Made by a program: the position numbers and the translations under genes
Shown: one piece after another, positions 8,593 through 57,752 of the stretch
How positions within the stretch are numbered: position 1 is the first letter of the stretch
Layout of the letters: the number at the start of each line of letters is the position of its first letter
The notes under the pieces: model-generated
Seen by the model: the letters and a program-made list of their open reading frames with translations, nothing else
Databases searched by the model: none
What the model was told of the DNA's origin: nothing
Source: Phycisphaerales bacterium
Lineage (GTDB): Bacteria > Planctomycetota > Phycisphaerae > Phycisphaerales > UBA1924
NCBI GenBank assembly: GCA_029260315.1
Contig: JAJDDM010000106.1
Location: forward strand, 1 to 64,000
Direction: 5' to 3'
DNA length: 64,000 bases

Positions 8593-8697
8593 TGAAGCCG
8601 CGGAGGCATCTGCCCTTGGAGGAGCGAAACATTAATGAGTGCGCGCAGGGGACGGCTATCTGCGACGTCGCCGGCGAGGTTGGGGGGCGAGGGGGGC

Positions 8698-8821
8698 GGT
8701 GAGTTGTTCGTAGAGGGCGAAGAGGTGTTCGAGGCGGTGGCGCTCGGTGTCGAAGCGGTTTCGGCGGTAGCAGGCGTCGACGGCGCGGTCGAGGGTCTGG
8801 TGGGCGCGGCGGAGGGGCGGG
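8698..8821 (-). pseudogene. detached second copy of a MmeI-like C-terminus
   Basis: These 124 bases are identical to 10158-10281. In the minus frame they encode PPLRRAHQTLDRAVDACYRR and the following LEHLFALYEQLT, the end of a MmeI-like (type IIL) restriction-methyltransferase. Here the segment has no start and is fused at its 5' side to unrelated sequence. It lies just downstream of the Fic gene, while the other copy lies just upstream, so the two copies flank Fic as direct repeats. Confidence 0.85.
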
Positions 8822-10110: not shown

Positions 10111-10487
10111 CAAGGACTCCTCCGGCGGCGCGTGCGGGGTTGTGGCGCGAGAGGTGTGGTGAGTTGTTCGTAGAGGGCGAAGAGGTGTTCGAGGCGGTGG
10201 CGCTCGGTGTCGAAGCGGTTTCGGCGGTAGCAGGCGTCGACGGCGCGGTCGAGGGTCTGGTGGGCGCGGCGGAGGGGCGGGGGCATGGCGTTGGGGTCGG
10301 CGAGGGTGGCGTCGGGGCAGGCCGAGCGCGCGTCGAGGACGGCTTGGGCGGCTTCTTCGACGCGGGTGCGCTGCCGGTCGGTGATGCTTTGGTGCCAGGG
10401 GAAGTTGTTGTAGACGAGGCGATGGACTACAGGCATCGGGTTCGCCTCGGTGGTGCGTTCGGCGCGATTATTGTTCATATGGTCCAA
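10110..10487 (-). pseudogene. C-terminal fragment of a MmeI-like (type IIL) restriction-methyltransferase
   Basis: The frame encodes MPVVHRLVYNNFPWHQS, then AQAVLDARSACPDATLAD, NAMPPPLRRAHQTLDRAVD and LEHLFALYEQLT, the conserved C-terminal part of MmeI-like single-chain enzymes. The usual ADLYDP stretch seems shortened to ADP. The 5' end overlaps the last 20 bases of the BsuBI/PstI-type gene, and the matching N-terminal part is found at 13129-13749. The middle (methyltransferase and most of the specificity region) is absent, so no functional enzyme can be made. Confidence 0.82.
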
Positions 10488-15572: not shown

Positions 15573-16631
15573 ATGCATGATGGCGGGTTGCTGCAGCTTC
15601 GGGGGATGGATCGGGGGGCCGTGGTTGAGTTGCTGGCGCGGGCGCGGGAGTTTGCGCGGCAAGTGGGTCGGGAGAGCGGGGCGCGGCCTATCGGTGCGGA
15701 CAGCGGCGGGGAAAGCAACGGCTCGGAGAGTGGAGCGCGGCCTATCGGCTCGGAGAGCCGATCTACCCAGCGCATAGGCTCGGAGAGCCGATCTACGCCG
15801 ATGGTCGCGACGATGTTCTTCGAGGACTCGACGCGGACGCGGCTGAGCTTCGAGATCGCGGCGAGGCGGCTTGGGGTCGAGGCGCTGGATATCGGGCCGA
15901 GCTCGAGCACGAGCAAGGGCGAGACGCTGGTGGACTCGGCAAAGACCATTGAGGCGATGGGTGTGGATGCGCTGATCGTGCGGGCGGGGCCGAGCGGGGC
16001 GGCGCATCTGATCGCTCGCCATGTGTCGGTGCCGGTGATCAACGCTGGGGACGGGAAGCACGAGCATCCGACGCAGGGTCTGTTGGATTGTCTGACGTTG
16101 TGCCGAGCGCTGGGGCGGGATGACTTTGATCTCTCGGGCGTGCGGGTTGCGATTGTGGGGGACGTGGTGAGCTCGCGGGTCGCGCGCTCGGCGGTGGCGG
16201 GGTTTGGGGCCTTGGGGGCGGAGGTGGTATGCGTGGGGCCGGTGCATCTGGCGCCGAGATCGCTGGAGGGGCTTGGGTGTTCGGTCTCGCACGATCTGGA
16301 TGGGGTGATCGGGGATGTGGATGCGGTGATGATGTTGCGGGTGCAGAGAGAAAGGCACGGAGGCACGGAGGTACGAAGGCACGAAGGGGGGGAATGGGGA
16401 GCCGCGGGTTCGGTGGGGGCGTACCGGGCGGGGTTTGCGTTGACGGCGGAGCGGGCCGGGCGGATGAAGGCGGGGGCGGTGGTGATGCATCCGGGGCCGA
16501 TGAATCGGGGGGTGGAGATCGATTCGGAGGTCGCCGACGGGGCGCGGAGCCTGGTGACGCGGCAGGTGGCGGCGGGGGTGGTGGTGCGGATGGCGGTGAT
16601 TGAGAGGGCGTTGGGGGGAGCAAGTGGCTAA
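15573..16631 (+). CDS. pyrB: aspartate carbamoyltransferase with two repeat-derived insertions
   Basis: Catalyses carbamoyl phosphate + aspartate to carbamoyl aspartate in pyrimidine synthesis. Key motifs are intact: STRTRLSFE binds carbamoyl phosphate, HPTQGLLD, and HPGPMNRGVEI near the end. Two segments are foreign. Between the first helix (LLARAREFARQ) and MFFEDSTRTR the chain gains about 35 residues (GARPIGSESRSTQRIGSESR and related) encoded by palindromic repeat family B. After MMLRVQRER a second stretch (HGGTEVRRHEGGEW) comes from a tandem GGCACGAAGG-type repeat and replaces the usual segment before the GLTAERL-like block. The start at 15573 was chosen because it gives the normal N-terminal LLQLRGMDRGAVVELLARA. 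Confidence 0.92.
   Translation: MHDGGLLQLRGMDRGAVVELLARAREFARQVGRESGARPIGADSGGESNGSESGARPIGSESRSTQRIGSESRSTPMVATMFFEDSTRTRLSFEIAARRLGVEALDIGPSSSTSKGETLVDSAKTIEAMGVDALIVRAGPSGAAHLIARHVSVPVINAGDGKHEHPTQGLLDCLTLCRALGRDDFDLSGVRVAIVGDVVSSRVARSAVAGFGALGAEVVCVGPVHLAPRSLEGLGCSVSHDLDGVIGDVDAVMMLRVQRERHGGTEVRRHEGGEWGAAGSVGAYRAGFALTAERAGRMKAGAVVMHPGPMNRGVEIDSEVADGARSLVTRQVAAGVVVRMAVIERALGGASG
15680..15797. repeat. palindromic repeat family B inside pyrB
   Basis: Two full arms with the core GGCTCGGAGAGCC lie at 15743-15768 and 15776-15797, both ending GATCTAC, and a decayed arm (CCTATCGGTGCGGA) lies at about 15687. The element stays in frame with pyrB and encodes repeated GSESRST peptides. Confidence 0.85.
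16347..16394. repeat. tandem GGCACGAAGG-type repeat inside pyrB
   Basis: Four degenerate units of AGGCACGGAGG / AGGCACGAAGG follow each other in frame with pyrB. Similar strings are familiar as intergenic simple repeats in planctomycete genomes. Confidence 0.75.
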
Positions 16632-19325: not shown

Positions 19326-19354
19326 CCGATCGGCGGCAGGATGCCGCCGCCCCG
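19326..19354. repeat. hairpin repeat, family A, copy 3
   Basis: Inverted relative to copy 1: GGCGGCAGGATGCCGCC followed by GCCCCGAG. The second small hairpin is lost. It lies between the convergent ends of the zinc-ribbon and permease genes, where it could also serve as a terminator. Confidence 0.75.
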
Positions 19355-24558: not shown

Positions 24559-25068
24559 GAGAATCTCCCCTTCACGGAACCAATCGCGTCCGGCAATCAG
24601 CCAGCCGGAGCGAGCGAGCCCGATCGGGATTGTCCGATCAACGTAGGTGATCGGGTATCGCCGGTCAAGTGCGCACACGGTGTTTCCAGCCGGCGCTGCT
24701 CTTGCTGCAACTTAGAAGTGACTTGGGGAAGGCGAAGAAGACCTTGAGGTCCTCGTTAGGTGTGGCGATCGGCGGCCGCCCGCGGCCCGCTGATATGGTT
24801 GGATACTCCATGGGCTCAGGGAGGCTTCGGACGGGGGCGAAGAATAGGTTGCATGGTGGAGTCGGAGGAGTTGGAGTTGATCAACATGAGGAATCGCGGG
24901 AGAGCACTGCTGCGCGCTGTAGCCCGGGGCATCCCTGCCGGCGATCGCGCAGCGATACGAGAGCTTCCGAAGCACGACAATCCCGGATCCGACGGCGAAC
25001 TATCGCCTTCGGCGATCGGCGGCTGGAAGCCGCCGCCCCGAGATGGGGAACCTGCCATAATCCGGACC
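24559..25068. other. intergenic region with one family A repeat
   Basis: No convincing gene. The open frame that enters from 24760 into the kinase-like gene lacks a ribosome binding site and normal composition. The only structured item is the double hairpin at 25002-25040 just before the kinase-like start. Confidence 0.5.
25002..25040. repeat. double-hairpin repeat, family A, copy 4
   Basis: ATCGCC-TTC-GGCGAT followed by GGCGGCT-GGA-AGCCGCC and GCCCC, the reverse orientation of copies 1 and 2. The A-T pair at the stem tip of the other copies is T-A here, which keeps the pairing. Confidence 0.8.
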
Positions 25069-25806: not shown

Positions 25807-25920
25807 GGGTAGATCGGCTCTCCGAGCCGATGAGTTCGCGTCGTCGCCAAGCGTGCTCCAGGCTGAGGCGGATCTTGGAAAGTCAACGAAGGCGCATCGG
25901 CTCGGAGAGCCGATCTACCC
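25807..25920. repeat. palindromic repeat family B, paired (REPIN-like), upstream of rimO
   Basis: Left arm GGGTAGATCGGCTCTCCGAG and right arm, its reverse complement (CTCGGAGAGCCGATCTACCC), enclose about 60 bases. Each arm is itself a palindrome around CTCCGAG / CTCGGAG. The element lies between the kinase-like stop and the rimO start. Confidence 0.9.
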
Positions 25921-25945: not shown

Positions 25946-27616
25946 ATGGTGGCCTTGCCTGGAACTGCCGTCCAATCCGTGTCGTTTGTGAGTCTGGGCT
26001 GTCCGAAGAACCTCGTGGACTCTGAGAAGATGCTCGGCCTGCTCGCCGAGGACGGGGTCGTGCCGATCAGCTATGACCCCGCCGAGGGCTTCGGCGAGGC
26101 CGACGCGGTGGTGGTGAACACCTGCGGGTTTCTCGAGGCGTCGAAGGAGGAATCGCTGTCTGTGATCCGCGAGGCGGTGGAGGCGAAGGAGGCCGGGCGC
26201 GTCGGGCGGGTCGTCGTCGCCGGGTGCCTGGTGCAGCGTCATCGGGCGAAGATGCTGGAGTGGGCGCCGGGGATCGACGCGATGGTCGGTGTGTTCGATC
26301 GGGATCGGATCGTGGAGGCCGTGCGCGGCAAGGCGCCCGAGCGCGACTACCTCGACAAGGCGAGCGACGGGCCGAAATACTGGATCGCGAGCAATGCGCT
26401 CTTGGCAGCAAAAGAGCGCGGACGCGAGACCGTGGGCCTGACCGTGCATGGCAAGGACGGCAAGGGGATCGGATACTTCGAGGACGATTCGGCGAGGCTG
26501 CGGCTGACGCCGCGCCACTACGCCTACCTGCGCGTGAGCGAGGGGTGCAACCAGAACTGCGCGTTCTGCACGATTCCCTCGATCCGGGGCAAGATGCGCA
26601 GCAAGCCGCTGGAGCGGATCGCCGCGGAGGCCCGGGAGTTGGTGCTCGATGGGGCGTTCGAGCTGAACTTGATCGGGCAGGACACGACGAGCTACGGGGA
26701 GGATCTGGGTAGATCGGCTCTCCGAGCCGATGAATCTGGATCCGCGCGGAAGGCGCATCGGCTCGGAGAGCCGATCTACCCGGGGCTGCCGGCGATGCTC
26801 AGGGCGGTGAGCGACGCGGTCGGCGAGACCGGCGGCGTCGGCTGGGTGCGGCTGATGTACGCCTACCCAACCAACTTCTCCGACGCGATGATCGAGGCGT
26901 TCCAGGAGTTGACGGAGGCCGGGCACCTGCTGCCATACATCGATATCCCGTTGCAGCACGCGAGCGACCGGATGCTGAGCGCGATGCGTCGGAATGTGAC
27001 GCGCGACCAGCAGGAGACGCTGCTGGGCAAGCTGCGGGACCGGATTCCGGGACTGGCGATCCGCACGACGCTGATCAGCGGGTTTCCGGGAGAGACCGAC
27101 GAGGACCACGCGGCGTTGGTGGAGTTCGTGCGTTCGCAGGGGTTTGATGCCCTCGGCGTCTTTGAGTACTCGCGCGAGGAGGGAACGGTCGCGGGGACGA
27201 TGGAGCGCGATCCCAAGCTCGCTGTGCCGGCTGATGTCAAGAAGGCCCGGCGGGACGAGATCATGCAACTGCAACAGGAGATCGCGTTTTCGCACGCGGC
27301 GGAGATCGCGGGACAGTTCGACGCGCTGCGTCCGAAGGACACCGGCGCCCGCCTCGACGTGCTCATCGACAGCGAGCTGAAGACCGAGGGCCGCAAGACC
27401 GCGGGGGTGAGCACCGGCGGGCGGCTCTACCAGGGACGCACGAAGGCCCAGGCGCCGATGGTGGACTCGGTCACCTATGTGCAGTCGGCGGCGCGCCTGA
27501 GCCCCGGCGAGCTGGTGCGGTGCGTGATCGTCGATAGCGACGGGTATGACCTGATCGCAAAGCCGGTCGAGGAGCTCGAGCGCCGCTCGAGCCTGCGGGT
27601 CATCGGCGTGCGATAG
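25946..27616 (+). CDS. rimO: ribosomal protein S12 methylthiotransferase with a repeat-derived insertion
   Basis: 556 residues from the ATG at 25946 (MVALPGTAVQSVSFVSLG). The N-terminal MTTase domain has SLGCPKNLVDSE, NTCGFLE and VVAGCLVQRH with its cluster Cys; the radical SAM domain has CNQNCAFCTIPSIRG (CxxxCxxC); a TRAM domain ends the protein. It methylthiolates an Asp of ribosomal protein S12. Relative to the family, two regions are long: an extra stretch between VVGVFDRDRI-type sequence and YAYLRVSEGC, and 25 residues (GRSALRADES...HRLGEPIYPG) encoded by palindromic repeat B right after GQDTTSYGEDL. The catalytic residues are unaffected. An upstream extension of the open frame is only a translated repeat. 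Confidence 0.93.
   Translation: MVALPGTAVQSVSFVSLGCPKNLVDSEKMLGLLAEDGVVPISYDPAEGFGEADAVVVNTCGFLEASKEESLSVIREAVEAKEAGRVGRVVVAGCLVQRHRAKMLEWAPGIDAMVGVFDRDRIVEAVRGKAPERDYLDKASDGPKYWIASNALLAAKERGRETVGLTVHGKDGKGIGYFEDDSARLRLTPRHYAYLRVSEGCNQNCAFCTIPSIRGKMRSKPLERIAAEARELVLDGAFELNLIGQDTTSYGEDLGRSALRADESGSARKAHRLGEPIYPGLPAMLRAVSDAVGETGGVGWVRLMYAYPTNFSDAMIEAFQELTEAGHLLPYIDIPLQHASDRMLSAMRRNVTRDQQETLLGKLRDRIPGLAIRTTLISGFPGETDEDHAALVEFVRSQGFDALGVFEYSREEGTVAGTMERDPKLAVPADVKKARRDEIMQLQQEIAFSHAAEIAGQFDALRPKDTGARLDVLIDSELKTEGRKTAGVSTGGRLYQGRTKAQAPMVDSVTYVQSAARLSPGELVRCVIVDSDGYDLIAKPVEELERRSSLRVIGVR
26707..26781. repeat. palindromic repeat family B, paired, inside the rimO coding region
   Basis: A 75-base element (25 codons) with the same left and right arms as the copy at 25807 and a spacer of about 25 bases. 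It reads through in frame as part of RimO. Confidence 0.92.
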
Positions 27617-30451: not shown

Positions 30452-30597
30452 GGGTAGATCGGCTCTCCGAGCCGATGTCTCGTGATTCGGCGGAACGATC
30501 GACTCAGTCCCGACACTCCGACTGTGGGCGTCGATCGATGCAAACGCATCGGCTCGGAGACTCGATAGACGCATCGGCTCGGAGAGCCGATCTACCC
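30452..30597. repeat. palindromic repeat family B, paired and composite
   Basis: Left arm GGGTAGATCGGCTCTCCGAG at 30452 and right arm ending GATCTACCC at 30597, with an extra, partly decayed right-arm copy (CATCGGCTCGGAGACTCGAT) inside. It lies between the phosphatase start and the detached AsmA-like fragment. Confidence 0.88.
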
Positions 30598-30904
30598 GCC
30601 GCCGATGTTTTTGAGCGCGTCCTCGAGGCCTCGGCGGAGGAGGTCCTCGGGCTTGAAGCTGCTTCGGAGGGTCTCGACGAAGAGGTCGCCGGCGAGGCTG
30701 GCCTGGGGCGAGCCCATGGGGCCGCTGAGGCGGATGGGGACCTGGAGTGTGTTCATGTCGGGCGCGACGCCGAGGGGGCCGAGGACGCGGGCGATCTGGC
30801 CCTGGATATCTGCGCCGAACTCGGCGCTGAGCGAGCCGAAGGGCAGGTAGGTCACGGCGTCGATCGAGCGGCCGGCGAGATCGACCTGTCCGTCGAGGCG
30901 GGCG
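30598..30904 (-). pseudogene. detached second copy of the AsmA-like C-terminus
   Basis: The minus frame encodes TYLPFGSLSAEFGADIQGQI through PEDLLRRGLEDALKNIGGG, about 90 residues that match the very end of the giant gene at 32220 almost residue for residue (there PEDLLRGGLDEALKRIGGG). The two differ by scattered substitutions, mostly at the extreme end, so the copy is not a recent perfect duplication. It has no start of its own and lies just downstream of the LVIVD/dockerin gene. Confidence 0.85.
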
Positions 30905-30936: not shown

Positions 30937-32127
30937 TCAGTCGCATCCGGCTTGGAAGAGGTCGAGGAATCCGAAGAAGTCCTTGGCGTCGAGATCTCCG
31001 TCTCCGTCGATATCGGCGCCTGAGTGTCCATCGGCAAAGAGCTCTAGGAAGAGGAAGAAGTCGTCGGAATCCAGATCGTTGTCGAAATCGCGATCGGCAA
31101 GGCAACGGCAGTTCGTGAGGTCGACGAGAGTGACAGTACTTATTCCTCGTAGAATGCCGATTGTGCCAGCGACGCCAATCTCTAAATACTGTCGGTCTTG
31201 AGTATACCTTGCAATGAGAACCGGATTCTGCAGATCACGAAGATCATAAATGCGGAGGGCTTGCTCAACTCCCCAGACGCTTGAGACATATCCCTTGTCG
31301 CCGACGACCTTGATGCTATTTACGCCAGGATCCACGTCAAAGCGAGCGATCTCGATAGGGGCAGTCGGGTCAGATACATCGATGAAGATCAGCGGCCCTC
31401 TGAAGGTATCACAGTACGCGACGTTTCTCTGGATGTCTATCTGTGTTATGGGTATGTCGGTGCTAAGCTGACCCAGGAAAACCGGGTTGTCAGGATCTGC
31501 TATGTTCACGGCCGCTAATCCTCCAGACTCGCGCCCATCAGACGAGTACCCGATGAACGCCACATTATCCGCGACCTCTATATCCCTTGCGTTGGTTGGA
31601 ATGCTCACGCTGCCCCTGATTATCGGGGAGGTTGGATCCGTAGCGTCCAGCACAAAGAGCTTCTCTTCGGTGTTATCGACGCCGTAAATGAAGCTCCGCT
31701 CGACATCAACGTCGCTGAATCCAAAGTTCCCTTGCCTATGAGTGCCGAGCACCTCAGGCTGAAGTGGGTTGGAGAGATCCAAGAGGTGAGTCCAGATGCC
31801 TGCTTGTGCGTACCCGATGTCGTCCTCTATGATGAGGCCGTAGACCGTCCCCATCCCCCATGCTGCCAGAAAGACCGGATCAGTAGGGTCGGAGATATCC
31901 AGCACCCAGACATCTCCTCTGAAATCTGGGTCGTCGTTATCTTCACCCATGGCAAACAGCAAGTGATCATCTACGACCGCGTCGGTTACACAGAACCAAG
32001 GATGCACGTTCGCGAGAAACGACTCGGTACATTCAAAGGGCTGTGCCGCGGCCATCGATGCGCATAGAGCACCTATTGCCGCGTGCATCGACCGTCGGCA
32101 TGCTGTTGTCTCTTGGTGCTCATGCAT
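30937..32127 (-). CDS. secreted LVIVD-repeat beta-propeller with dockerin-like tail
   Basis: 396 residues with a signal peptide after MHEHQETTACRRSMHAAIGA. About six LVIVD-type blades are visible (VWVLDISDPTDPVFLAAWG, THLLDLSNPLQPEVLG, LFVLDATDPTSPIIRG, LAAVNIADPDNPVFLG, LIFIDVSDPTAPIEIA, LRIYDLRDLQNPVLIA). The tail has two calcium-binding-like repeats (DFDNDLDSDDFFLFLELFAD and DIDGDGDLDAKDFFGFLDLF) and ends AGCD. The DNA is less GC-rich than its surroundings. The gene is flanked on both sides by copies of the AsmA-like 3' end. Confidence 0.88.
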   Translation of the reverse strand: MHEHQETTACRRSMHAAIGALCASMAAAQPFECTESFLANVHPWFCVTDAVVDDHLLFAMGEDNDDPDFRGDVWVLDISDPTDPVFLAAWGMGTVYGLIIEDDIGYAQAGIWTHLLDLSNPLQPEVLGTHRQGNFGFSDVDVERSFIYGVDNTEEKLFVLDATDPTSPIIRGSVSIPTNARDIEVADNVAFIGYSSDGRESGGLAAVNIADPDNPVFLGQLSTDIPITQIDIQRNVAYCDTFRGPLIFIDVSDPTAPIEIARFDVDPGVNSIKVVGDKGYVSSVWGVEQALRIYDLRDLQNPVLIARYTQDRQYLEIGVAGTIGILRGISTVTLVDLTNCRCLADRDFDNDLDSDDFFLFLELFADGHSGADIDGDGDLDAKDFFGFLDLFQAGCD

Positions 32128-32219: not shown

Positions 32220-35200
32220 TCAGCCGCCGCCAATGCGTTTCAGAGCTTCGTCAAGGCCCCCCCGGAGGAGATCCTCGGGCTTGAAGCTGCTGCGGAGGCT
32301 CTCGACGAAGAGGTCGCCGGCGAGGCTGGCCTGGGGCGAGCCCATGGGGCCGCTGAGGCGGATGGGGACCTGGAGTGTGTTCATGTCCGGCGCGACGCCG
32401 AGGGGGCCGAGGACGCGGGCGATCTGGCCCTGGATATCTGCGCCGAACTCGGCGCTGAGCGAGCCGAAGGGCAGATACGTCACGGCGTCGATCGAGCGGC
32501 TGGCGAGATCGACCTGCCCGTCGAGGCGGATTGTGAACTCGCCGAGGGGGATCCGGACGTCGCGGTAGAGGACGACGCCGTCGCGGGCGCGCAGGTTGAT
32601 CGGCTTGAGGCGTTTGCCGGCCTGGGCGTCGACGTCCCAGGAGAGGGCCTTGAGGAAGGGCGCGAAGGCGCGGCTGGCGCGGAAGCCGGCGGTGCCGAGG
32701 TCCAGATCGACGTTGGCGTTGAGCTTGGAAAGGTCGCCGTCGAGCGGCAGCTCGAGACGCTTGATCGTGAGCGTCGCGGGGCGGTCGTTCTCATCCTTTT
32801 CGATGCCCGAGAGCAGCGGCATGATCTCGGAGATCCTGGAGGAGAGTTGCGGCGTGAAGCTCGCGACGCGGATCTGGGCCTGTTCGCCCTCGTCGATCGG
32901 GCGTGCGCGGAAGGTGGCGTCGCGGACGCGCCCGCGGAGGTTGACGGTGGTAGTGGGGGTGTCGATCGAGAGGCGGACGCCGCCGCGGTCTTTGGTGAGG
33001 TCTTCTGCGACGAACTCGGCGCTGGCGACGCCTCCGGCGAGGTCGCTGAGCACGCCGCCCTGGTCGAGCAGGGCGTCGAGGAAGTCGATCGGGGCGTTGT
33101 TCGCCGAGGCACGCAGGTTGAGGACGGACTCGTCGGGGAGGATCGTGCCGGCTGGGTCGCGGGCGAGTTGGAGGGTGCCGGTGGCCTCGATCGCGCGCGA
33201 GCCGGGCTCGCTCATGGCACGCAATGCGCCGGCGTCGAGGCGGACGAGATTCGGCATCTGCGGATCGGTGCGGACATGCACGTCGAGGTCGTTGAGCATC
33301 TCGCCTTCGCCGGATTCCAGCGCGAGCGCGAGGCGGTCGGTGCGGACGCGCGCGTCGAACGCCAGCGGGCCGGCGTGCCCGGCGCGCGGCAGGCGCGTCG
33401 TGTCGGCGTCGAGGACCAGGCGCGTCCGCGAGCTCATCGAGATCGGCAGCGACGGCGCGATGTGCTCGCTGAGCCAGGAGCCGTCAAGATCGATCGACGC
33501 GTGGACGGGGCCGACTTCGATCTCACGCTCGCGCAGGGCCAGGGAGATCCGGTCGGTCGTTTCGAGGCGTTCGGTATCGACGGCGGCGGAGAGGAAGACG
33601 CCGTCGGTGAGATCGAACTCGATGTCGGAGCTGAGCGTCGGGCCGGCTGCGCCCGTGACCAATCCGGGTGACTGTAACAAGCGGTCGGCGAGGGCGAGGC
33701 TGACGCCCTGGAGATTTGCGCTGCCCTTGATCGCGCCGGCGGTGCGCGTCACGTCGAGGGCGATCGCGCCGATCGAGGTCTCGGACTCATCGAGCAGCGC
33801 GAGCGAGAGGGCGAGTGTGGTATCGCGGGCCTCGCCCGGCTGGAGCGCGACCTTCGCCGTAAGTCCGTCGAGCAGGACGGGGCCGAGGAATCGGCGATCG
33901 TCGTCGGCCATCTTGAGGCCCAGGCCTCGCAGGTCGGCGCGTTCGAGGGTGACGGTCGCGTCGAGGGTCTGGGCGATGTCGCCGGCGTCGAGGCCGAGCA
34001 GGGTCGGGCCGATGGCGATGTGGAAGGCGGTCTGGCCGGCGATGCGCGGCTGGGGGTCGAGGGTGGGGACGAAGGTGTCGAGGAGGGCCTGGAGGGTGCG
34101 GGGGCGGATGGCGCCGTCGGCAGAGGCGCTGTCGATGCGGAGGGTGGTGTCGCCCAGGGAACCGGAGAGTTCGCCCGTGAGGTCGGCAAGCGCAAGCGAG
34201 CCGGTGAGCGCGAGGTCGTCGGCGCGCGGCTCGAACGAGAGCGAGCCCGAGACCCGCTCGCCGACGGTTTGCGCGGCGAGGTCGTTGAGATCAACGGGTT
34301 CGCCGTTGGCGTCGCGGATCATCACGCCGAGATCGCTGAGCAGGGAGACGGGGGCGTCGCGGAGCGCCGCGCTGCCGCGGACGCCGCTGGCGGCGTAGCG
34401 ACGCTCGAGCAGCGCCGTCAGGTCGATCTGGGCGAGCTCGAAGCTGGCCTCGAAGGGCTCGGCGTCGCGCTGGAGGCGCAGGTCGCCGGAGGTGGAAGCG
34501 ACGCCGGCGGGGGTGAGGGCGGCGCGGATGGTCGAGGAGGCGATGGTCATGGGTGCCGCGCCGTCGCGGGTGAGGCGGATGGCGGGCGCGCCCTCGACGC
34601 GGACCATCGCGGTGCCGGCGATCGCGCCGCCCATCCGATCGGGCTCGTTCAGTCGATCGAGATCGATGCGCAGGTTCGCCAGCTCGCCGGCGAGCGTCGC
34701 GGGGGCCGTAAGCTCGACGGGGGCGTCCTTGCCGAGCAGGGCGCGGATGAGATCGGGCTGGACGTGGAGTGAGAATCTCAGCGGCTGATCTGTCGAGCGG
34801 ATGAGGCGTTCTGCGAGAATGAGCGATCCCGATGCGGTCGCACGCTCGCTGTTGACGGCGAGGTTCGCGAGGCGCTCGCTGCCGCGGGCTTCGACGGCGA
34901 CGCGGGCGCTGAGCGCCGGGCCGATGGCCTCGCTGAGGTCGACGGTGTCGCCGATCCAAGGCTGCGCCAGGGCGGTGTCGGCGTCGTCGATCGAGACCTC
35001 GCCGGCGAGCTGCTGGGCGTCGAAGGTGAAGTTGCCGGCGTCGTCGAAGAGGCGCGCGAGGGAAGCGGCGATTTGGAAGCGCCCGGCGTCGCGCCCGTCC
35101 ATCGTCGCCGAGCCGCTGGAAGTTACGGCGAGGCCCGACTCGGGCGCGAGGGTGACGGTGGCGGTCGTGGGGGAGAGGGCGATGTCGTGGCGTTCGTCGT

Positions 35201-40487: not shown

Positions 40488-42830
40488 ATGATCCGCCGTC
40501 TCTCCACTGCCGCCCTCACGCTGGCCGCCCTCGCCGGCTCCGCCCAGGCCACCTGGTCCATCCTGCTCATCGACACCCGCACGGGCGAGGTCGCCCTGGG
40601 CTCGGCGACCTGCCTGACGGGGTTCGATCTGCGAGCGAACACGCCGGTGATGATCGTCGGACGGGGCGGGGTCACCGCCCAGTCCTCGGTCGATCAGCGG
40701 GGCTACAACCGCGTCTTCGCCCGGGATCGCCTGTTGGAGGGGGTCGATCCGGTCACCATCGTCGACCTTCTCGACGATTTCGACAACGCCCACCAGTCCC
40801 GCCAGTACGGGATCATCGACACCATCGGCGGCGTGGCGACCTTTACCGGGGCCAACGCCGGACAATGGGCTGGCGGCACGACCGGCAGCTTCCAGTCGTT
40901 CCACGGCGGGCACGAGACGACCATCGTCTACGCGATCCAGGGCAACGTGCTCGCGGGCTCGCCGGTTATTGATGAGGCGGTGGACGCGGTGATCAACACG
41001 CCGGGAGATCTCGCTGAGAAGATGATGGCGGGCATGGAGGCGGCGCATATCTGGGGCGGCGATGGTCGGTGCTCGTGCGGGAACGATCCCGACGGCTGCG
41101 GCTCGCCCCCCAACGGATTCGATCCCGAAACGGATAAATCGGCGCATATCGCCTACATGCTGATCGGGCGGACGGGCGACGTGGACTCCTGCCTGAGCGT
41201 CTATCGCGTCGCGCCGCCGTCGTACGCCGTGGGGTTCATCGATCTCAACGGCGATGGTCTGGCGGACACGGTATCGACCGGCAACGGCGGGCTGTATCGG
41301 ATGCTCAACTCCACGCCCGACGCGCGGTTCGTCAAGCTCGACGCCGCGGAGTTGATCGGGGCCCTGCCCGGCCGCGGCGAGCAGATCGAGACCGGCGACG
41401 TGACCGGCGATGGGAACGACGATGTTGTGGTCGGCGTGCCGTCGGACAATGCCATCCATGTCTTCGCGGGCGACGGCGTGGGCGGGTTCGACGCCCCGGT
41501 CCGGCTCGCAACACTGCCCGGCGGGCCGGCGGGGCTGGCGCTGGGCGATCTCAACGGCAACGGCGTCCATGACATCGTCACGTCCACGGGATCGCTTGAT
41601 CAGGTCGCGATCTTCCTCGATGACGGGCAGGGCGGGTTCGACCCGGCGATCCTGGTGAGCGTGGACGACGACGCCGAGAACGTCGCCCTGTTCGATCTGG
41701 ACGCCGACGGCGATCTGGATATCGCGGCGGCACAGGACTCGATCGACCGCCTGGCGATGGTGGAGAACACCGGGAACTTCGCGTTCATCGGCTCGCTGGG
41801 GACGCTCGACGATCCGTACGACGTGGTCAGCGCCGATCTCGACGCCGATGGCGACGACGACCTGGCGGTCTCGCATCGCAACGGGCGTGGAATCAGTGTG
41901 TACCTCCAGGATGGCGGCGTGATGCTCCGCGCCGATGTGCTCGTGTCCGAGCGGGTGGTCGAGATGGACGCCGCGGACGCCGATGGGGATGGAGATCTCG
42001 ATCTGCTGGCGATGCGCCTGGGCGGCTCGCGATTCACGACATTCGAGAACGACGGCGCCGGCGGGTTCAGCCTCGTCAGCGAGGACAACCGGCTCTCGGG
42101 CGGCGGGCAGGATTTCGCGGCGACCGACCTGACCGGCGACGGTCTGGCCGACGCGATCTCGCCCGGGGGCAACGCCGGGACCAGCGCCCTGGCGAACCTC
42201 GGCAGCAGCGCCGTCGGCATGTTCCCGAGCGATCTCGGCTGCGCCAGCGGCGACTACTTCATGACATTCAATATCGCCAACCAGACCGGCGGCGACGACG
42301 ACCCCACACGCCAACTCCGCGGGCTGTTCGACAACTGGCGCGACGATCTCGCCGGACGACCCGACGCGGTCACGAGCGATGTCACCCTCGCCGACGAGCT
42401 CTTCGCCGACGGGCGTGAGACGACGATGACCGTGCTGCTGATGGACTGGCAGGAGAACGCGATCACCAAGCCGACGACGATCAGCGTCGAGCACGCCCCG
42501 GGATCGGACGGGCGGACGACGATCGGCGCGATCACCGATCTCGGCGGCGGAGCCTTCGAGGTCGTCCTCGGCGGCGCGAGCGAAACCGGCGCCGACGCGT
42601 TCCGCATCACCGCTGACGACGGCGTCCGCCCGGTCGTGCTCATGCCCGATCCGTCGCTCGCGGTCGTTCCGCACCCGGCCGACATCGACATCGACGGCGA
42701 CGTGGACGCGAAGGACTTCTTCGGCTATCTCGACCTGTTCGCGGCCGGCGACGCCCGGGCGGATATCGACGGCGACGGGGACATCGACGCCGAGGATTTC
42801 TTCGGGTATCTCGACCTGTTCGTGCTTTAG
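40488..42830 (+). CDS. secreted DUF1028 and FG-GAP repeat protein with dockerin-like tail
   Basis: 780 residues from the ATG at 40488 (GAGGAGG nearby). The signal MIRRLSTAALTLAALAGSAQA ends before TWSILLIDTRTGEVALGSAT, the start of the DUF1028 (Ntn-hydrolase-like) domain, of about 240 residues. Then come FG-GAP/VCBS-like repeats (GDVTGDGNDDVVVGVP, LGDLNGNGVHDIVTS, FDLDADGDLDIAAAQ, ADLDADGDDDLAVSH). Two acidic C-terminal repeats ([20 protein letters not shown] and [16 protein letters not shown]) end the protein without the usual GC. Secreted; the role is unknown. Confidence 0.85.
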   Translation: MIRRLSTAALTLAALAGSAQATWSILLIDTRTGEVALGSATCLTGFDLRANTPVMIVGRGGVTAQSSVDQRGYNRVFARDRLLEGVDPVTIVDLLDDFDNAHQSRQYGIIDTIGGVATFTGANAGQWAGGTTGSFQSFHGGHETTIVYAIQGNVLAGSPVIDEAVDAVINTPGDLAEKMMAGMEAAHIWGGDGRCSCGNDPDGCGSPPNGFDPETDKSAHIAYMLIGRTGDVDSCLSVYRVAPPSYAVGFIDLNGDGLADTVSTGNGGLYRMLNSTPDARFVKLDAAELIGALPGRGEQIETGDVTGDGNDDVVVGVPSDNAIHVFAGDGVGGFDAPVRLATLPGGPAGLALGDLNGNGVHDIVTSTGSLDQVAIFLDDGQGGFDPAILVSVDDDAENVALFDLDADGDLDIAAAQDSIDRLAMVENTGNFAFIGSLGTLDDPYDVVSADLDADGDDDLAVSHRNGRGISVYLQDGGVMLRADVLVSERVVEMDAADADGDGDLDLLAMRLGGSRFTTFENDGAGGFSLVSEDNRLSGGGQDFAATDLTGDGLADAISPGGNAGTSALANLGSSAVGMFPSDLGCASGDYFMTFNIANQTGGDDDPTRQLRGLFDNWRDDLAGRPDAVTSDVTLADELFADGRETTMTVLLMDWQENAITKPTTISVEHAPGSDGRTTIGAITDLGGGAFEVVLGGASETGADAFRITADDGVRPVVLMPDPSLAVVPHPADIDIDGDVDAKDFFGYLDLFAAGDARADIDGDGDIDAEDFFGYLDLFVL

Positions 42831-43674: not shown

Positions 43675-46011
43675 CTACGGGCAGCCGGCGGCGAAGAGGT
43701 CGAGGTAGCTGAAGAAGTCCTCGGCGTCGCAGTCGGTGTCTTCGTTGATGTCGCAGACAGCCATGTTGCCTGTGGCGAATGCGTCGAGGTAGAAGAAGAA
43801 GTCGTCGGCGTCGGCGTCGCCGTCGGGGACGCCGTAGATGGGGTCGTTGGGGTCGGAAGAGCCGGTGAGGTCGGCGGGGCAGGGCAGATCAGTCATAATC
43901 TGATTCCAGAGGATCGACAAACCCCATGTGCGGCTGGCGCTGCTCGACACGATATCGACATCACCGTCACCATCCATGTCGGCGAGATCGACCCATCCTG
44001 CAGATACGGCGGTATACAGCACGGGATCCTCAAACAGCCCATCTCCGGTGTTTGTGAGAACCCATAACTCGCCGCCGTTACCTCGTCCCACACACACAAT
44101 GTCAAGGTGCGAATCTCCATTCAGGTCGGCGAAGGATAAATCCGAGATAACGTTAATCGGATACTCTGCACGACTCGTAAAGCCGCCAGCTCCATCTCCG
44201 TGAAATATGCAGACCGGTCCACCCCGAGATACAACAGCCAAGTCCGCCTTGCCGTCACCGGAGAGATCGCCTAGCGCGACTGCCTCCGGAAAACGGTGGG
44301 ACAGTTGTTCGCCAACGACGAACTGACCCGTCCCATTCCCAATGAACACCGTCACGTCCTGGCTCGAACGGGCTGCAACGACGAAGTCCATGCTTTGATC
44401 TAGATTCACATCCGCTACCTGAATATCGACCAGTTCGTCACCGGCCTCCAGGCGATCAATCTCAACGAACGAGCCATTCCCCTGATTCGCGTGGATGCTC
44501 ACATTGCCAGAGCCAATAAAGTGGGCGACAATGCAGTCAAGATCAGCGTCGCCGTCAATGTCCGCGAGATCCAGGGCGACAGGCCTCCCCGCGGCCTGGT
44601 ACTGGGTCGCAGATCCAAACTCTCCTGAGCCATCATTGAGCAAAACGCAAATCGCGTCGGCCTCTTCACACGCTATGACAATGTCCATCGAGCCATTGCC
44701 GTCGACGTCCGCGAGGCGAACTGCGCGAGGCCGCGAGGGTACCGAGATGTGAGCTGGCTCGCGGAGGTTTCCGATTGAGTCATTGAGATAGATGGAAATC
44801 TGGTCGCTCATCGGAGGGGGTACAACGAGATCGGGGGATTCATTATCGTCGAGCAGGCCCGCGGCGATCCCCGAAGCCCCGTCTACCATCGAGTGCGCGC
44901 TGTGCCCGACAAACGCTCCACCCGGCGCACCATATGTAACAATCGCGCCAATATCATTCCCGGTGCTTGCCGCATTGAGGTCGCCATCGCCATTGACATC
45001 GCCAATCTGCAGCCCCGCCCAATAATCCTGCGGCGCGCCAAGCGAGCCTGTGCCGTCATTCGCCAACACATGAAGCCGCCACCGGCCCTCGCCACACATC
45101 GAAAGCACGTCAAGATCATTGTCCAGATCAATATCTCGCAAAGCCAGTTCTGTGCAGCCCCCTGGAACAAGTGCGGACTCAACGACCTCAAATACACCTG
45201 CGCCGAGATCGGAAAGGACGACGATACTCTCGTCCACATCTACTCCCGATGCGATAATCTCCGGCACCCCGTCGCCGTTCAAATCTCCAGCCGCAACCGA
45301 TTTGGGTGCCAATGGCACGTCAACGGTGACTGCGGTCGCGAACACAAGATTCCCAACATTATACAAGATACTGATGTCGTCGCTTCCATCGTTGGCCGTA
45401 CAGATATCTAGCAGAGAATCCTGGTTAAGATCAGCTAAGGCAACTCCGTCGGGCCACATACCCGTCCCGAAGGCTCCCGAGGTTGTCAGGTTGGCAAGGC
45501 CATCGTTCTCGAGGATGTGAACAACGGACTCTGTAACATCGGTGACGACGACGTCTCGATCTCCATCGTTGTCCAAGTCCGCAGCGGCGACCGCGATCGG
45601 ATGCGGACCAACCTGATATGTAGCAATATCAGCCAGGTCGCCGGCTCCGTCGTTCAAGAAAACGGAGATGCTGCCGTTCGCACGATTCACTGCAACGACG
45701 TCCAGCCGTGCATCCTGGTTGAGATCAACGGCCAAGATGGCCTCGGGCGACTGGCCGGCAGAGTACGACAGTGGCGATCCGAAATCGCCGTCGCCGAGAC
45801 TCATCACGACAGAGATGGAATCTTCAAACCGATCGATCGTAACGATGTCGGCGTACCCGTTGCCATCAAGATCCGCAAGTACGACTTAAAGGGGATCGCT
45901 CTCGGTCGGAACAACGGGAGAAGGAAACTGCGCCACTTGTCCCACGGCGTAAACGGGCAGGAATGAAACGAAGAACAGACAAGGCTGCCTTACAATAAAT
46001 GCACTCTTCAT
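43675..46011 (-). pseudogene. secreted VCBS-repeat protein with dockerin-like tail, interrupted by one in-frame stop
   Basis: From the ATG at 46011 (GGAAGG upstream) the frame gives a signal-like MKSAFIVRQPCLFFVSFLPV, then at codon 42 a TAA (45888-45886), after which the same frame continues without interruption for 736 residues. The body has about 12 FG-GAP/VCBS units (VVLADLDGNGYADIVTIDRF, VDLNQDARLDVVAVN, ADLDNDGDRDVVVTD and so on). The end has the two acidic repeats and AAGCP. The upstream part is too good to be chance, so a single nonsense change or read-through is suggested. The DNA is AT-richer than its neighbours. Confidence 0.75.
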
Positions 46012-47844: not shown

Positions 47845-50835
47845 TCAGTCGCAAGGCTGGACGAACAGATCGAGGTACCCGAAGAAGTCCTCGGCGTCGA
47901 TGTCTCCGTCCTCGTCGATGTCCGCCGCGTCGTCGCCGCTAGCGAACAGGTCGAGATACCCGAAGAAGTCCTCGGCGTCCGCGTCACCATCGCCGTCGAT
48001 GTCGGCGGGGCAGCAGGTAGAGTTGTCCGGCGTGCTCAGCGCGTCCGACGGGTCGGCGCACGCGTCCAACTCATCGCGATCGAGGAACCCGTCCTGGTCG
48101 CGGTCGATCCCGATGCGCTGGGCGGTGTTGGGCGCGACAACCGTGAAGGTCAGCTCCGAGTCCGGCACGATCAGGCTCGTGAGCACGGCGTGGTTGAAGA
48201 CCTGGCCCAGGCGGTCGCTCTGATAGAGGCTGCCGCCGGTGTAGAGGAAGCCACGGCGCTCGCCGAGAAAGGCGCCCTTGGCCACGAGCCCAACGGTCCC
48301 CGTGTTCGCCTCGTCGAGCATCGCCTGGAGGCGATCCAGCTCGTCCTGGGTGGCGTTGGCGAAGTCGTCGAGCGTGAGCTGCTGGCCGACCGCCGCGTGG
48401 GCGTCCTTGCTCAAGGGTCCGGGCGGCTCGAGCGGGTTGGTCGGGCTGCCCTGCGGTAGCTCCGAGCCGCTGAACGAGAGCATGAACGCGGTGAGATCCG
48501 CGAGTTCCTGGACGTTGTCCAGGCTGAAAACCGGCTCGCCGATGAACCGCTCGATCGAGTCGACGCTGCCGTCGTGCAGGTAGCCGAAGCCCGCGGTGTT
48601 GCGGAGTTGCGTGGCGTTGAAGCCCGCCTTCTCGTGCATGTTTCGCGTCTGCGGGATCTTAATTGAGATATTGGTCGAGCCGTCGACCGAGACGGCGCCG
48701 TGGTGCTCCTCGCCGTTGGGACCGGGAGGCAGCTCGATGAACTGAAGGCCCCGGAAGAAACCGTTCATCCCCATGCCCGTCGGCAGCGTGTGGCAGGTCA
48801 CGCAGTTGACGCCGTCGAGGCGCGCGCCGCGATAGAGCGTCAGGCCGCGCACCGCGTTGCCGTTGGGCAGCGGCTGTCCCGCCGGTTGGAACCTGCCGAT
48901 CGTGAAGTGCCCATCAAGCTCCATATCCGTCGGCAGCGAGTTGTCGAACTCGCGGAACGGGTTGGGCGGGAAGTGGATGGTCGCCAGGAAGTCCTCGAAC
49001 TCCTGCATCTGGTCGTCGGTGAGCGTCACGTCGTCGCCCAGCAGCCCGATGAACGCGCCGCTGAACTCTTCGAGGCCGAAGCGATCCGCCCGCCAGTGGT
49101 GCGGCTCGTGCCCGATGATGTCCTGGAGCGTCTGGGTCGTCATCGGCCCTTTCATCGGGTGCCAATCCTCGCAGCCGTTGTCGAGGCAGTTCTGGTCGAA
49201 CGCCTTCATCTCGCCCGCCGGGCTGCCCAAATCCCAGCCGATGCGGTCGAACCGCGCGTCGATGTGGCACGACGCGCAAGACATATGCCCGAGCCCGCTG
49301 GTGAGATTCGTGTTGTAGAAGTGGGGGCGCCCCAGCTTGATCGAGATCGGCGTGGGATCGAAGAACGCTACTCGTTCGATCTCGGCTTCTACAAGCGTGC
49401 CCACCACCGAGATCGAACCGTCGAACTTGTTCATGACATAGAGCTGCGCCCGCGCCTCATCGAGCACCAGCCCCGTCGGCCCCTCGCCGACAGGTATCAC
49501 CGTGCCGCCCGGCCCCGGGCCCACGCGATTGGCCGAGGCGTCCACGACGATGACGCTGTTTGAGCCCATGCCCGTGACGTAGCCGATCTGGCCCGAACTC
49601 TCGAAGACCACGCCGCGCGGATCGCCCAGCGACATGTCCCGCTCCTCCTGCGGAATCGGATCGAAGTCCGGCCCCGCCGGGTAGCTCAGGTGCGGATTCA
49701 GATCGACGATCGAGCTCGAAAACGTCTGCGGATCGACGATCGCGGCGTTCACCCGCAGAAACCTGCCGTTGAGATTCGGCTCGAAGCGGATCTCGTTGGT
49801 CGCGTCGGTCCCGACGATCGCGATCTCGCCGGTCGCCGGGTTCACGCCCATTGCCATGCACGCGTTCATCAGGCGCGTGGCGTACTGCACGCTCAGGCCC
49901 GAGGCGTCGATCACCGCGAGGTCCTGATCCACGAGATCCCACCCGGGGCGTCGCCCGGATTGGGCCGCGCGGTTGCCGGTGACAAACTGCGACCAATCCC
50001 CGCCGTTGTCGTCCATCCACCGCCCCTGCTCGTCCTTCTTCACGATCAGCCCGACCTCCAGAGGCGTCGGCAGGTTGCCATCGATGGGCGGGCTGAACGC
50101 GTTGCCGTCGTTCGGCGGCGGGTTCTCCCCGCCGTACGGCCCGTTCGGGTTGTTGACGACGTTGGGCGGATACGCGTTGCCGCCATTCAGCGTCAGCCCC
50201 CCGCCGAGGATCGTCGAGCCGTTGCCGGACTCAAAGATCGCGGCATACACCGTGTTCCCGTCGGGACTGACCGCCAGCGCCCGCGGATCCTCGCCCTCGA
50301 TCTCGATCGTCGCCAGCGGCTCATTCGGATCGCCCGGATCGAACACCTGCACGCGATTGACCTGCGAGCACGACACGAACGCCCGCTCGGGTGAACCCGC
50401 GAAGACCACGTCCGCCGGCTCGTCATCGGTCAGGATCGTCCGCACGACGCGCATCGACGCCAGATCCACCACGCTGATCGAGTCCGAGACGTGGTTCACG
50501 ACCCACGCCTCGCCGTTCGAGCGGGCCCGCACGCTCACCGGGTCGATCCCCACTTCCAGCGAGTCGGCGTGGACGGGCGATCCCGACCCGAGATCAAAGA
50601 CCTCCAGCGAGTTGCCCGCCGTGTTCACGGCCAGCAGCGTCAGCCCGTCGGGCGTCATCGCGATCGGGGAGACGTGCGGCGTCTCCCAGTTCACGAACGT
50701 CGCCTCCGGCACCGCCTCGGCGGGCGACGACAAGGCCCCCACCAGCAGATCCTCGCTCGGCAGGCTCATCGAAACGAACGCCACCGCCGTCGGCACCGCG
50801 ACGCACAGACCCGCAAACGCCCGTCCGATATGCAT
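47845..50835 (-). CDS. secreted beta-propeller and cytochrome c-type protein with dockerin-like tail
   Basis: 996 residues with signal [25 protein letters not shown]-type propeller blades come first ([20 protein letters not shown]-like, [37 protein letters not shown]). Two c-type heme sites follow, CASCH and CVTCH, in a part resembling di-heme peroxidases ([20 protein letters not shown]). The tail carries [19 protein letters not shown] and two [24 protein letters not shown] repeats, ending QPCD. Probably an extracellular redox protein. Confidence 0.85.
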
Positions 50836-55366: not shown

Positions 55367-56587
55367 TCAACACCCCGCCGCGAAAACATCCAGATAGCCG
55401 AAGAAGTCGTCGGCGTCACAATCCTGATCGCCGTCGACGTCGCACACGCCCAGATCGCCCGATGCGAATGCGTCCAGGTAACTGAAAAAATCGTCCGCGT
55501 CCGCATCCCCATCCCCATCCAGATCCGCGCCGCAACTCTCGATCGCCGTCATCAGGAACGCCCGACCCGGGATCTCGTCGCGGATCCCGATCCCCGTGAT
55601 CTGCATCGCGTCGTTGATCGCCAGCGGCGACGTGATGATCCAGCTCGCCCGCGCATCGTCGTCGGCGATCAGTTCGTCCAGCCGGAACTTCTCGCCATCG
55701 ATCCAGATCCAGCCGATCTGCGGCTCGCCGGCCGTCGCGTCGGTCCCCACGATCACTCTGTCGTTGTTCAGACCGCTCGCGACGCTGCGCAAAACGTCCT
55801 CGTTCAGCAGCCCGAGATCCACGATCGAACCATCGGCGGGCCAGAGCACCGAGCGGTTCTGCAACTGCGCGGTCCTGGAACGACCGACCACGTCGCCCGC
55901 GTCGTTGATATCTCGAACCTCTGATCGCGCAAATCCCAGGTTCGGCAGGATCCTCGCCTCGTCCGTCCGCGTGTCGTACACCCAACCCACGAACTCCTCG
56001 GCGTCCGTCCACTGATGGCCCGTGACCTGCCCCGCATCGTTGACGTCCTCGGCGTGCCCGCCGCCGGAAGAACCCGGAATGAAGATCGGCCTCAGCCCGT
56101 CGTCCTGTGTCCAGAACCAGGAGTGCCCGCCCTGGATCCCGCCCTTGCCGACGACGATGCCCGAGGAGTTCACGCCCCAGGCCTCGGATGAGAGCAGCGG
56201 GTCCAAGCCCGGCGTCACTTCCACCATCCCCGTCGCGTCGCTCCAGAAGAACGCCCTCGTGATCAGGATCGGGTTGCCCTGGAACTCCTCGTCGAACGCA
56301 GCCCCGCCCGCGGCGAGCCCGCTGTTGGAAATCCCACGCGCAACCCCGCCGGCCCCGGGATGTTTGCTGAACGCGCCCAGGTCCACCATCTCGCCGTCGG
56401 TCCAGATGAACGGCCTTGCGGTGATCTTGGGCAGTTCGGCCTGCCCGGCGACCTGCCCAGCCTGGTTGATATCCAGCCCATTGGCGAGCTCGCCGCCGAG
56501 ATCGCCGAGGTCGATGATCTCGTACATGGGGGGCTCGCCCGCCGCGGTGCCGCACGTCAACAGCAACATCGTGATCGCGGATCTCAT
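55367..56587 (-). CDS. secreted HAF-repeat protein with dockerin-like tail
   Basis: 406 residues with signal MRSAITMLLLTCGTAAG. HAF-type repeats are visible as ELANGLDINQAGQVAGQAEL, AWGVNSSGIVVGKGG, AEDVNDAGQVTGHQW, VRDINDAGDVVGRSR and ASGLNNDRVIVGTDA. The tail has [20 protein letters not shown] and DVDGDQDCDADDFFGYLDVF and ends AAGC. Presumably extracellular; the role is unknown. Confidence 0.85.
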   Translation of the reverse strand: MRSAITMLLLTCGTAAGEPPMYEIIDLGDLGGELANGLDINQAGQVAGQAELPKITARPFIWTDGEMVDLGAFSKHPGAGGVARGISNSGLAAGGAAFDEEFQGNPILITRAFFWSDATGMVEVTPGLDPLLSSEAWGVNSSGIVVGKGGIQGGHSWFWTQDDGLRPIFIPGSSGGGHAEDVNDAGQVTGHQWTDAEEFVGWVYDTRTDEARILPNLGFARSEVRDINDAGDVVGRSRTAQLQNRSVLWPADGSIVDLGLLNEDVLRSVASGLNNDRVIVGTDATAGEPQIGWIWIDGEKFRLDELIADDDARASWIITSPLAINDAMQITGIGIRDEIPGRAFLMTAIESCGADLDGDGDADADDFFSYLDAFASGDLGVCDVDGDQDCDADDFFGYLDVFAAGC

Positions 56588-56849: not shown

Positions 56850-57752
56850 TCAGCAACCGCCCGCAAACAGATCCAGATACCCGAAGAAATCATCCGCGTC
56901 GCAATCGCCGTCCCCGTCGATGTCGCACACGCCCAGATCGCCGTTGGCAAAGGCGTCGAGATACGCGAAGAAGTCGTCCGCGTCGGTGTCCCCGTCGCCG
57001 TCAAGGTCCGCGGGGCAGCCACCGCCCTCGAAGAGAATCTCCGCGCTGATCCAGTTCGTCACATGGTTCGGCAGATCGATCGATTGCAGGATATTGCCCT
57101 GCTTGTCGAGCTGATAGCAGTCCACCGCCCCGCCGTTGAACGCGCCGGTCATCCAGAGGGTGTCATCCGCCGGATCGTACGCCAGGCCGTATCCCGCGCC
57201 CCCAATGAACGGCAGCGTCAAGTCCGTGAGTATGTTGCCGTTGAGGTCGTACTCCTGGAGGCCGTTGAATCCGCCCGAGTTGTTGGCGATCCACAGCGTC
57301 CCGCCGCTCGAATCAAACGCGATGCCCGAGCTTCTCACCGTCGGCACGAAGTGTACCGCGAGGCCCGCCCAGTCTTCGTCGCCCCGGACGACCGCGAAGT
57401 CTGTGTCAAAGTCGTTGTGCGCGACCGCGTAGTTGAACGTGCCGTCGGTCGTCCCGTCGTACAGATCGGTGAAGCCGGGATTCGAGTAAGGACCGCCTCC
57501 CAGCAGATCGCCGGCGAAGTCATACTCTCGCCCATCCTGTCCGCTGTTGCGTCCGACGACGCGGATCGACTCATGCATCGCAAGGCCACACTCGCCGAAC
57601 GCACCGCTGTTGGTCCAGGTCGAGACCAGCAGCCCGTTCTGCACGATCACGGCCTCGTTGGAGTCCCACGCGATCATGTACAAGGGGCTCGTCTGCGCGA
57701 TCGCGACCGAGGAACCCGCCCCGACAACCAGCATGACCAATGAAGCCTTCAT
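56850..57752 (-). CDS. secreted propeller-like protein with dockerin-like tail
   Basis: 300 residues from the ATG at 57752 with signal MKASLVMLVVGAGSSVAIAQ. The body has beta-propeller-like pieces (SSGIAFDSSGGTLWIANNSG, YGLAYDPADDTLWMTG). The tail DLDGDGDTDADDFFAYLDAF and [20 protein letters not shown] ends AGGC. It lies next to the HAF gene on the same strand, separated by about 260 bases. Confidence 0.85.
   Translation of the reverse strand: MKASLVMLVVGAGSSVAIAQTSPLYMIAWDSNEAVIVQNGLLVSTWTNSGAFGECGLAMHESIRVVGRNSGQDGREYDFAGDLLGGGPYSNPGFTDLYDGTTDGTFNYAVAHNDFDTDFAVVRGDEDWAGLAVHFVPTVRSSGIAFDSSGGTLWIANNSGGFNGLQEYDLNGNILTDLTLPFIGGAGYGLAYDPADDTLWMTGAFNGGAVDCYQLDKQGNILQSIDLPNHVTNWISAEILFEGGGCPADLDGDGDTDADDFFAYLDAFANGDLGVCDIDGDGDCDADDFFGYLDLFAGGC

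Follow-up and report, generated by a model that had tools for sequence, protein, structure and literature searches.

In-frame REPINs in rimO and other housekeeping genes of a Phycisphaerales bacterium, and RAYT transposase genes embedded in leuS and further host genes

How does a palindromic repeat come to lie within the reading frame of a housekeeping gene, and what becomes of it there? The question is raised by the rimO gene (25946..27616, plus strand) of the window analysed here, a stretch of 64,000 nucleotides of DNA from a Phycisphaerales bacterium. Its product, the ribosomal protein S12 methylthiotransferase, carries the UPF0004, Radical_SAM and TRAM_2 domains and scores 408 bits against TIGR01125 of NCBIfam (cut-off 357), and its reading frame is full-length, from the ATG at 25946 to the stop at 27616. 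An earlier note on this DNA had described a 75-base palindromic element inside the coding region that leaves the radical SAM cysteines undisturbed. Both observations hold: exact inverted arms bound the element at 26707..26781 (plus strand), in frame with rimO, and the CNQNCAFC motif lies upstream of the insert, unaltered. The element encodes residues 255-279 of RimO (...L-GRSALRADESGSARKAHRLGEPIYP-G...), and the alignment to the solved RimO structure 4jc0 is interrupted at the insert and picks up again afterwards.

The two 26-nt arms, whose letters were read directly from the window, are exact reverse complements of each other within a total length of 75 bases. The left REP (26707..26732, plus strand, GGGTAGATCGGCTCTCCGAGCCGATG) is composed of GG, a GTAG foot, the hairpin ATCGGCTC-TCC-GAGCCGAT and a final G; it is followed by a spacer of 23 nt that reads AATCTGGATCCGCGCGGAAGGCG (26733..26755) and by the inverted right REP (26756..26781, minus strand, CATCGGCTCGGAGAGCCGATCTACCC), the GTAG foot of which points outward. 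Folding gives each arm a stem of 8 bp closed by a 3-nt TCC loop with the GTAG foot left unpaired, and the 75-nt element as single-stranded DNA forms one hairpin (z = -9.8). An unpaired 5' GTAG (or GTGG) foot and a small-loop stem, of 6-9 bp in most families, are the marks of GTAG REPs, and the rimO element bears them both. It is a REPIN, that is two GTAG-type REP hairpins in inverted orientation that make up a non-autonomous mobile sequence.

The element is repetitive. The 20-mer of the arm occurs 8 times in the window (at most 3 mismatches) and not once in any of 100 shuffles. With up to 2 mismatches allowed, the source genome (G000, a 4.18 Mb draft in 195 contigs, 92% complete) contains 131 REP copies, whereas the reversed control pattern matches nowhere. 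Among the sampled genomes of the family the distribution is patchy: the REP is plentiful in G000, absent in the congeneric G002 and present in 1 to 17 copies in five other genera. Regarding the further copies in the window, the earlier note had placed them outside genes. This is correct for a second REPIN of the same family (25807..25920), just upstream of rimO and 3 nt past the end of a kinase-like gene, and for a third (30452..30597) between two minus-strand genes, but not for two tandem REPs (15742..15798, minus strand), which lie in frame in pyrB (ORF from 15477), after the N-terminal helix and before FFEDSTRTR; the OTCace_N match of this ORF starts at profile position 38, directly after the insert. 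Other repeats were noticed in the window. A second REP family has copies at 298-320, 761-783, 19331-19353 and 25017-25039, some with CTTCCAG loops, and amounts to 19 copies genome-wide when up to 2 mismatches are allowed. Paired repeats of 64-68 nt (30954-31098, 42674-42822, 43692-43839, 47862-48006, 55381-55528, 56864-57011 and 61677-61828) code for DxDxDG...DFFxYLDxF-like motifs in several separate genes, resembling dockerin-type or EF-hand-like C-terminal repeats, and two near-identical duplicates (30596-30895 and 32224-32523, 94%; 8660-8821 and 10120-10281, 93%) perhaps reflect recent gene duplication or conversion.

The REPIN is missing from RimO of both sister species, but the place it occupies is not empty there. 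The loop between GQDTTSYGDDI and LPxLL takes 5-41 residues in 69 RimO relatives (median 14), and in the two sister proteins it is 15 and 13 residues long and unrelated in sequence, against 26 residues in the REPIN-bearing RimO. The statement that the element adds 25 codons, if understood as a net gain, has consequently to be given up, and the alignment suggests that the REPIN took the place of a variable loop or overgrew it. At least three of the 69 relatives, all from other Phycisphaerales, carry in-frame REPs of their own in this same loop: a GTAGGTCGGCTCTCCGAGCCGAC pair, a variant of the rimO REP family, in L172; a GTGGCACGGGC... pair with 20-nt arms in L178; and one single REP in L160. In an AlphaFold2 model built from 30 sequences, of only moderate confidence (mean pLDDT 68), residues 247-278 have pLDDT values below 50 and lie between a strand (239-245) and a helix (281-294), so that the insert is predicted to be disordered. 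The range of loop lengths, the other REPs and the low-pLDDT region together indicate that this site is a tolerant loop that has been hit repeatedly.

The rimO insertion is one of many. Stretches fetched around exact REP copies, together with the window, yielded 130 arms (at most 3 mismatches) grouped in 71 clusters, and the inverted two-arm clusters were all of the '+-' type with GTAG feet outward (20 versus 0 of the '-+' type). A strict frame test, with a fixed coding-score threshold and a codon model for which the fetched stretches served as training set, placed 29 of the 71 clusters in frame within ORFs that show coding signal to either side; as the fixed threshold overlooked 11 further clusters in frame in long open ORFs, a looser open-frame test was added for them, which brings the number to about 40. 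Pfam identified among the hosts two aconitases, CstA, PurL, SucC (two inserts), DnaE, acetyl-CoA synthetase (two), CarB, LeuRS, aldehyde dehydrogenase (three), UppP/BacA, ProRS, UvrB, UvrA, a pseudouridine synthase, Fpg, SerRS, an ABC-F ATPase, AlaRS, Dus and RimO, and, in the looser set, ClpB, LipA, RlmN, PyrB, a carboxyltransferase and others; one terminase-like host scores under the Pfam cut-off. A single aldehyde dehydrogenase ORF (L091:3038-5260) contains three separate in-frame REP insertions.

The search of the genome for the arm, by frame, which the earlier note had proposed, thus places more than half of the clusters in ORFs and reveals that five of the six frames are used. Summed by hand over the codon phases, arms on the plus strand number 13, 24 and 0 and arms on the minus strand 18, 5 and 12; the unused sixth frame turns GTAG into a TAG stop, and its zero is partly a product of the in-frame test, which requires an open frame. 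No gene broken by a REP was seen: 8 non-intragenic clusters that were suspect because of same-strand coding on both sides were checked in detail, some clusters at contig ends being left unclassed, and all 8 proved to lie between complete genes, where the REP often adjoins or supplies the stop codon. Two sister genomes, searched with segments of the REP-bearing proteins and with the LeuRS and RimO loci, have uninterrupted ORFs with short native loops at the corresponding positions of RimO, LeuRS, AlaRS, CarB and DnaE, and the same empty sites are found for PurL, SerRS, ProRS, UvrB and aconitase.

The recurrence of certain hosts, namely genes for aminoacyl-tRNA synthetases, DNA repair and RNA modification, which Di Nocera and colleagues also saw (PMC3733652), would be expected if the REP-encoded peptide had been selected for a function, as a regulatory or structural module of the host enzymes. 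We consider this improbable, since the five reading frames yield five unrelated peptides, the inserts are missing in sister species, their sites are variable loops and the RimO insert is predicted to be disordered. A somewhat weaker candidate is the removal of the segment, by an RNA-level intron, translational bypass (byp-like) or protein splicing, which would deliver a RimO lacking it. The very stable hairpin that the 75-nt strand would make does recall bypass elements. Removal would, however, relax the constraints on frame and stop codons, whereas the examined inserts are open and multiples of three in length, and it is not needed in a loop that accommodates 5-41 residues. No Hint or intein family was detected by Pfam in any host ORF scanned, and the Rfam search for group I or group II introns or other RNA elements returned only a chance miRNA match, far under threshold, at the neighbouring REPIN. 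Removal is accordingly very unlikely.

What could have mobilised these REPs? Among 11 Y1_Tnp matches in the genome, one is flanked by exact REPs of the rimO type, and it lies within leuS. This gene (C80:13131-16670, equivalent to L090:7132-10671) is a single frame of 1,180 codons in which EAYWM is followed by a REP, a RAYT, a second REP and VDLYIGGAEHAV, all in the same open frame, the RAYT (C80:15033-15692, between exact REPs at 15024 on the plus and 15666 on the minus strand) having no stop codon of its own. The ORF scores 978 bits against leuS_bact with HVGH and KMSKS intact, and the LeuRS of the closest sister has two residues where the insert stands. Against NF047646 (REP-associated tyrosine transposase; cut-off 80), the RAYT reaches 90.9 bits alone and 86.9 bits within the whole ORF, and it displays the catalytic motifs DHVHW (HUH) and YIAQNPVEAG (Tyr). 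Assignment to IS200/IS605 transposases was rejected (NF033573, 20 bits, cut-off 55). With the RAYT alone as query, phmmer found nothing in the PDB, so that the family assignment rests on NCBIfam and Pfam. No second LeuRS was found in the draft, which at 92% completeness and 195 contigs may lack a second leuS or a free RAYT. A second RAYT lies in frame in rdgB/HAM1 of the same genome (C136; L039, L274; minus strand), flanked by REPs of the second family, GGGGCGGCGGCATCCTGCCGCCG.

Embedded RAYTs are not confined to this genome. Host genes were read from the flanking sequence, with a Pfam check on representatives, and in the class Phycisphaerae 42 RAYTs were identified that are embedded in a host gene or fused to one. 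In-frame hosts include ValRS (11 genomes), the LeuRS editing region (9), IleRS (3) and PurH (6), with RdgB (4, including G000), MiaA, RarA and a helicase-like gene as further hosts and four fusions at the C-terminus of ThiE. The core LeuRS site occupied in G000 is also occupied by a RAYT in another genus (G074, L283). Outside the class, an in-frame RAYT was observed in fabZ (3-hydroxyacyl-ACP dehydratase) of three genomes (L338, L343, L345). Of the RAYT matches, 47 of 63 in the class sample stand in frames of at least 450 codons, versus 20 of 84 in the phylum-wide sample (the listed matches of which, G000 apart, come from outside the class); frame length alone may overcount in GC-rich DNA, and the 42 with identified hosts are the firm number. 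Both HUH histidines are kept in 42 of the 42 and the catalytic tyrosine in 41; the sole exception, in ValRS of G005 (L222), has serine in its place and is possibly a decaying guest. Most of the embedded RAYTs are flanked within the ORF by inverted REP pairs, whose feet are often GTGG or GTAG and which match exactly over as much as 40 nt, and the REP type flanking the ValRS insertions is itself multi-copy, with 32-95 exact copies in G063, G064, G071 and G194.

In a tree built from 50 RAYTs, 13 changes of host label are needed, compared to 34.1 after shuffling (none of 200 shuffles was as low). Near relatives inflate a clustering of this kind, but several clades cover at least two family codes. 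Apparent moves between hosts are seen in the LeuRS clade, which also holds MiaA and the core LeuRS site, and in the ValRS clade, which holds one RdgB. The tree suggests that RAYTs mostly reside for long in one host gene, with occasional moves.

The source being a draft metagenome assembly in 195 contigs with REPs at several contig ends, the in-frame cases, above all the RAYT in leuS, could be assembly chimeras or pseudogenes. This is most improbable, given the 1,180-codon frame with both synthetase motifs intact, the occupation of the same LeuRS site in another genus and of a different LeuRS site in nine more genomes, and the ValRS insertions and conserved HUH residues described above. Finally, the earlier note had regarded unrelated sequence of equal length in relatives as a ground for refutation, and the alignment does reveal a hypervariable site with unrelated loops, some of similar length; yet both 26-nt arms are identical to other copies of a repeat that the reversed control pattern never matches, so that a native loop repetitive by chance is next to inconceivable and the insert is still a REPIN.

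Taken together, these results make it highly likely that a RAYT-mobilised REPIN has been kept in frame in rimO and that a RAYT is embedded in leuS in the same manner. In the most likely course of events, a RAYT of the HUH/Tyr type would have copied the REPIN, in single-stranded form, into rimO. The copy would have landed in a loop at the protein surface that links a strand to a helix in the radical-SAM barrel and whose length would barely matter. Being divisible by three in length and free of stops in its frame, it would have persisted, and for the same reason RimO would be made with a floppy REP-encoded loop. The roughly 40 in-frame sites would be what remains after insertions that break genes have been purged and open, in-frame ones in tolerant loops spared. 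By the same logic the autonomous copy, the REP-flanked RAYT, may be read as an internal domain of LeuRS, from which it would hardly be lost since most deletions would break the host gene. The anatomy and copy number of the REPs and REPINs, their in-frame state, the empty sister sites, the intact catalytic residues of the embedded RAYTs and their grouping by host gene are read from the sequences themselves; from these we infer that the RAYT in leuS moved the REPINs, that the REP peptide is retained and RimO and LeuRS work with their inserts, and that the RAYT is shielded by its place in essential genes. More generally, it is probable that RAYTs of Phycisphaerae are in-frame guests of single essential enzymes, translated and with their catalytic residues kept, which seed in-frame REPs and keep their host gene over genera to families.

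If this is correct, a home in an essential gene would account for the vertical, housekeeping-like inheritance of RAYTs, which evidence cited by Quentin et al. indicates for tnpA_REP (PMC6006769), and would offer a testable answer to the open question of how RAYTs are retained and vertically inherited without behaving as selfish transposons. The sequences point to a family of mobile DNA that spreads for the most part in the form of translated additions to housekeeping proteins. Active RAYTs in LeuRS or ValRS would constitute a natural fusion of a single-strand DNA nuclease and a tRNA synthetase, and a lead on the origin of large insertions in essential enzymes. For annotation, many odd extra loops of planctomycete enzymes may be REP-derived.

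The earlier note knew of no description of in-frame palindromes in planctomycetes, a statement that the literature qualifies. GTAG REPs of planctomycetes (R. baltica) were described in 2013, together with in-frame REP dimers coding for 20-30 residues in further bacteria, among them Opitutus terrae, which shares their superphylum (PMC3733652), so that the rimO insertion belongs to an already known type. The hosts of Di Nocera et al. (uvrA of Opitutus terrae and of Thioalkalivibrio, pseudouridine synthases and tRNA synthetases; PMC3733652) are, as here, genes of repair, tRNA and RNA modification, but neither RAYTs in host genes nor RimO were reported there, and the species and the REP sequence are new. 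RAYT genes embedded in housekeeping genes were not found described in the open-access literature, most subscription papers lying outside the search.

Compared to the classical GTAG REPs and REPINs (REP, BIME, SMAG) with their RAYT/TnpA_REP, the present elements share the foot, the hairpin, the outward inverted dimers, the high copy number and a RAYT flanked by the same REP. The classical REPs are mainly extragenic, whereas here more than half of the examined clusters are in frame in genes and the associated RAYT is itself within a housekeeping gene. The RPEs of Rickettsia, to which the earlier note had likened the element, are likewise in-frame palindromes kept as peptide in unrelated proteins, for instance those of uvrB and dnaE (PMC3733652). 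The resemblance stands as regards a palindrome in frame that is most likely retained as peptide, but not as regards kinship: RPE-4 and RPE-6 end in CGTC and belong to the CGTC superfamily (PMC3733652), repeats that have no associated transposase, and the rimO element, with its GTAG terminus, its RAYT and no CGTC end, is not an RPE of this type. Quentin et al. described in-frame REPs within subclass 2.4 tnpA_REP genes, the ORF being unbroken (PMC6006769); there REPs lie within the transposase gene, and here the whole transposase lies within host genes. Inteins and in-gene homing endonucleases provide a parallel in the way they work only: in both cases a nuclease domain stands in frame in essential, conserved genes and recurs in the same gene across genera, but the RAYT hosts lack a detectable splicing domain, and the insert appears to be retained, in tolerant loops rather than in active-site motifs.
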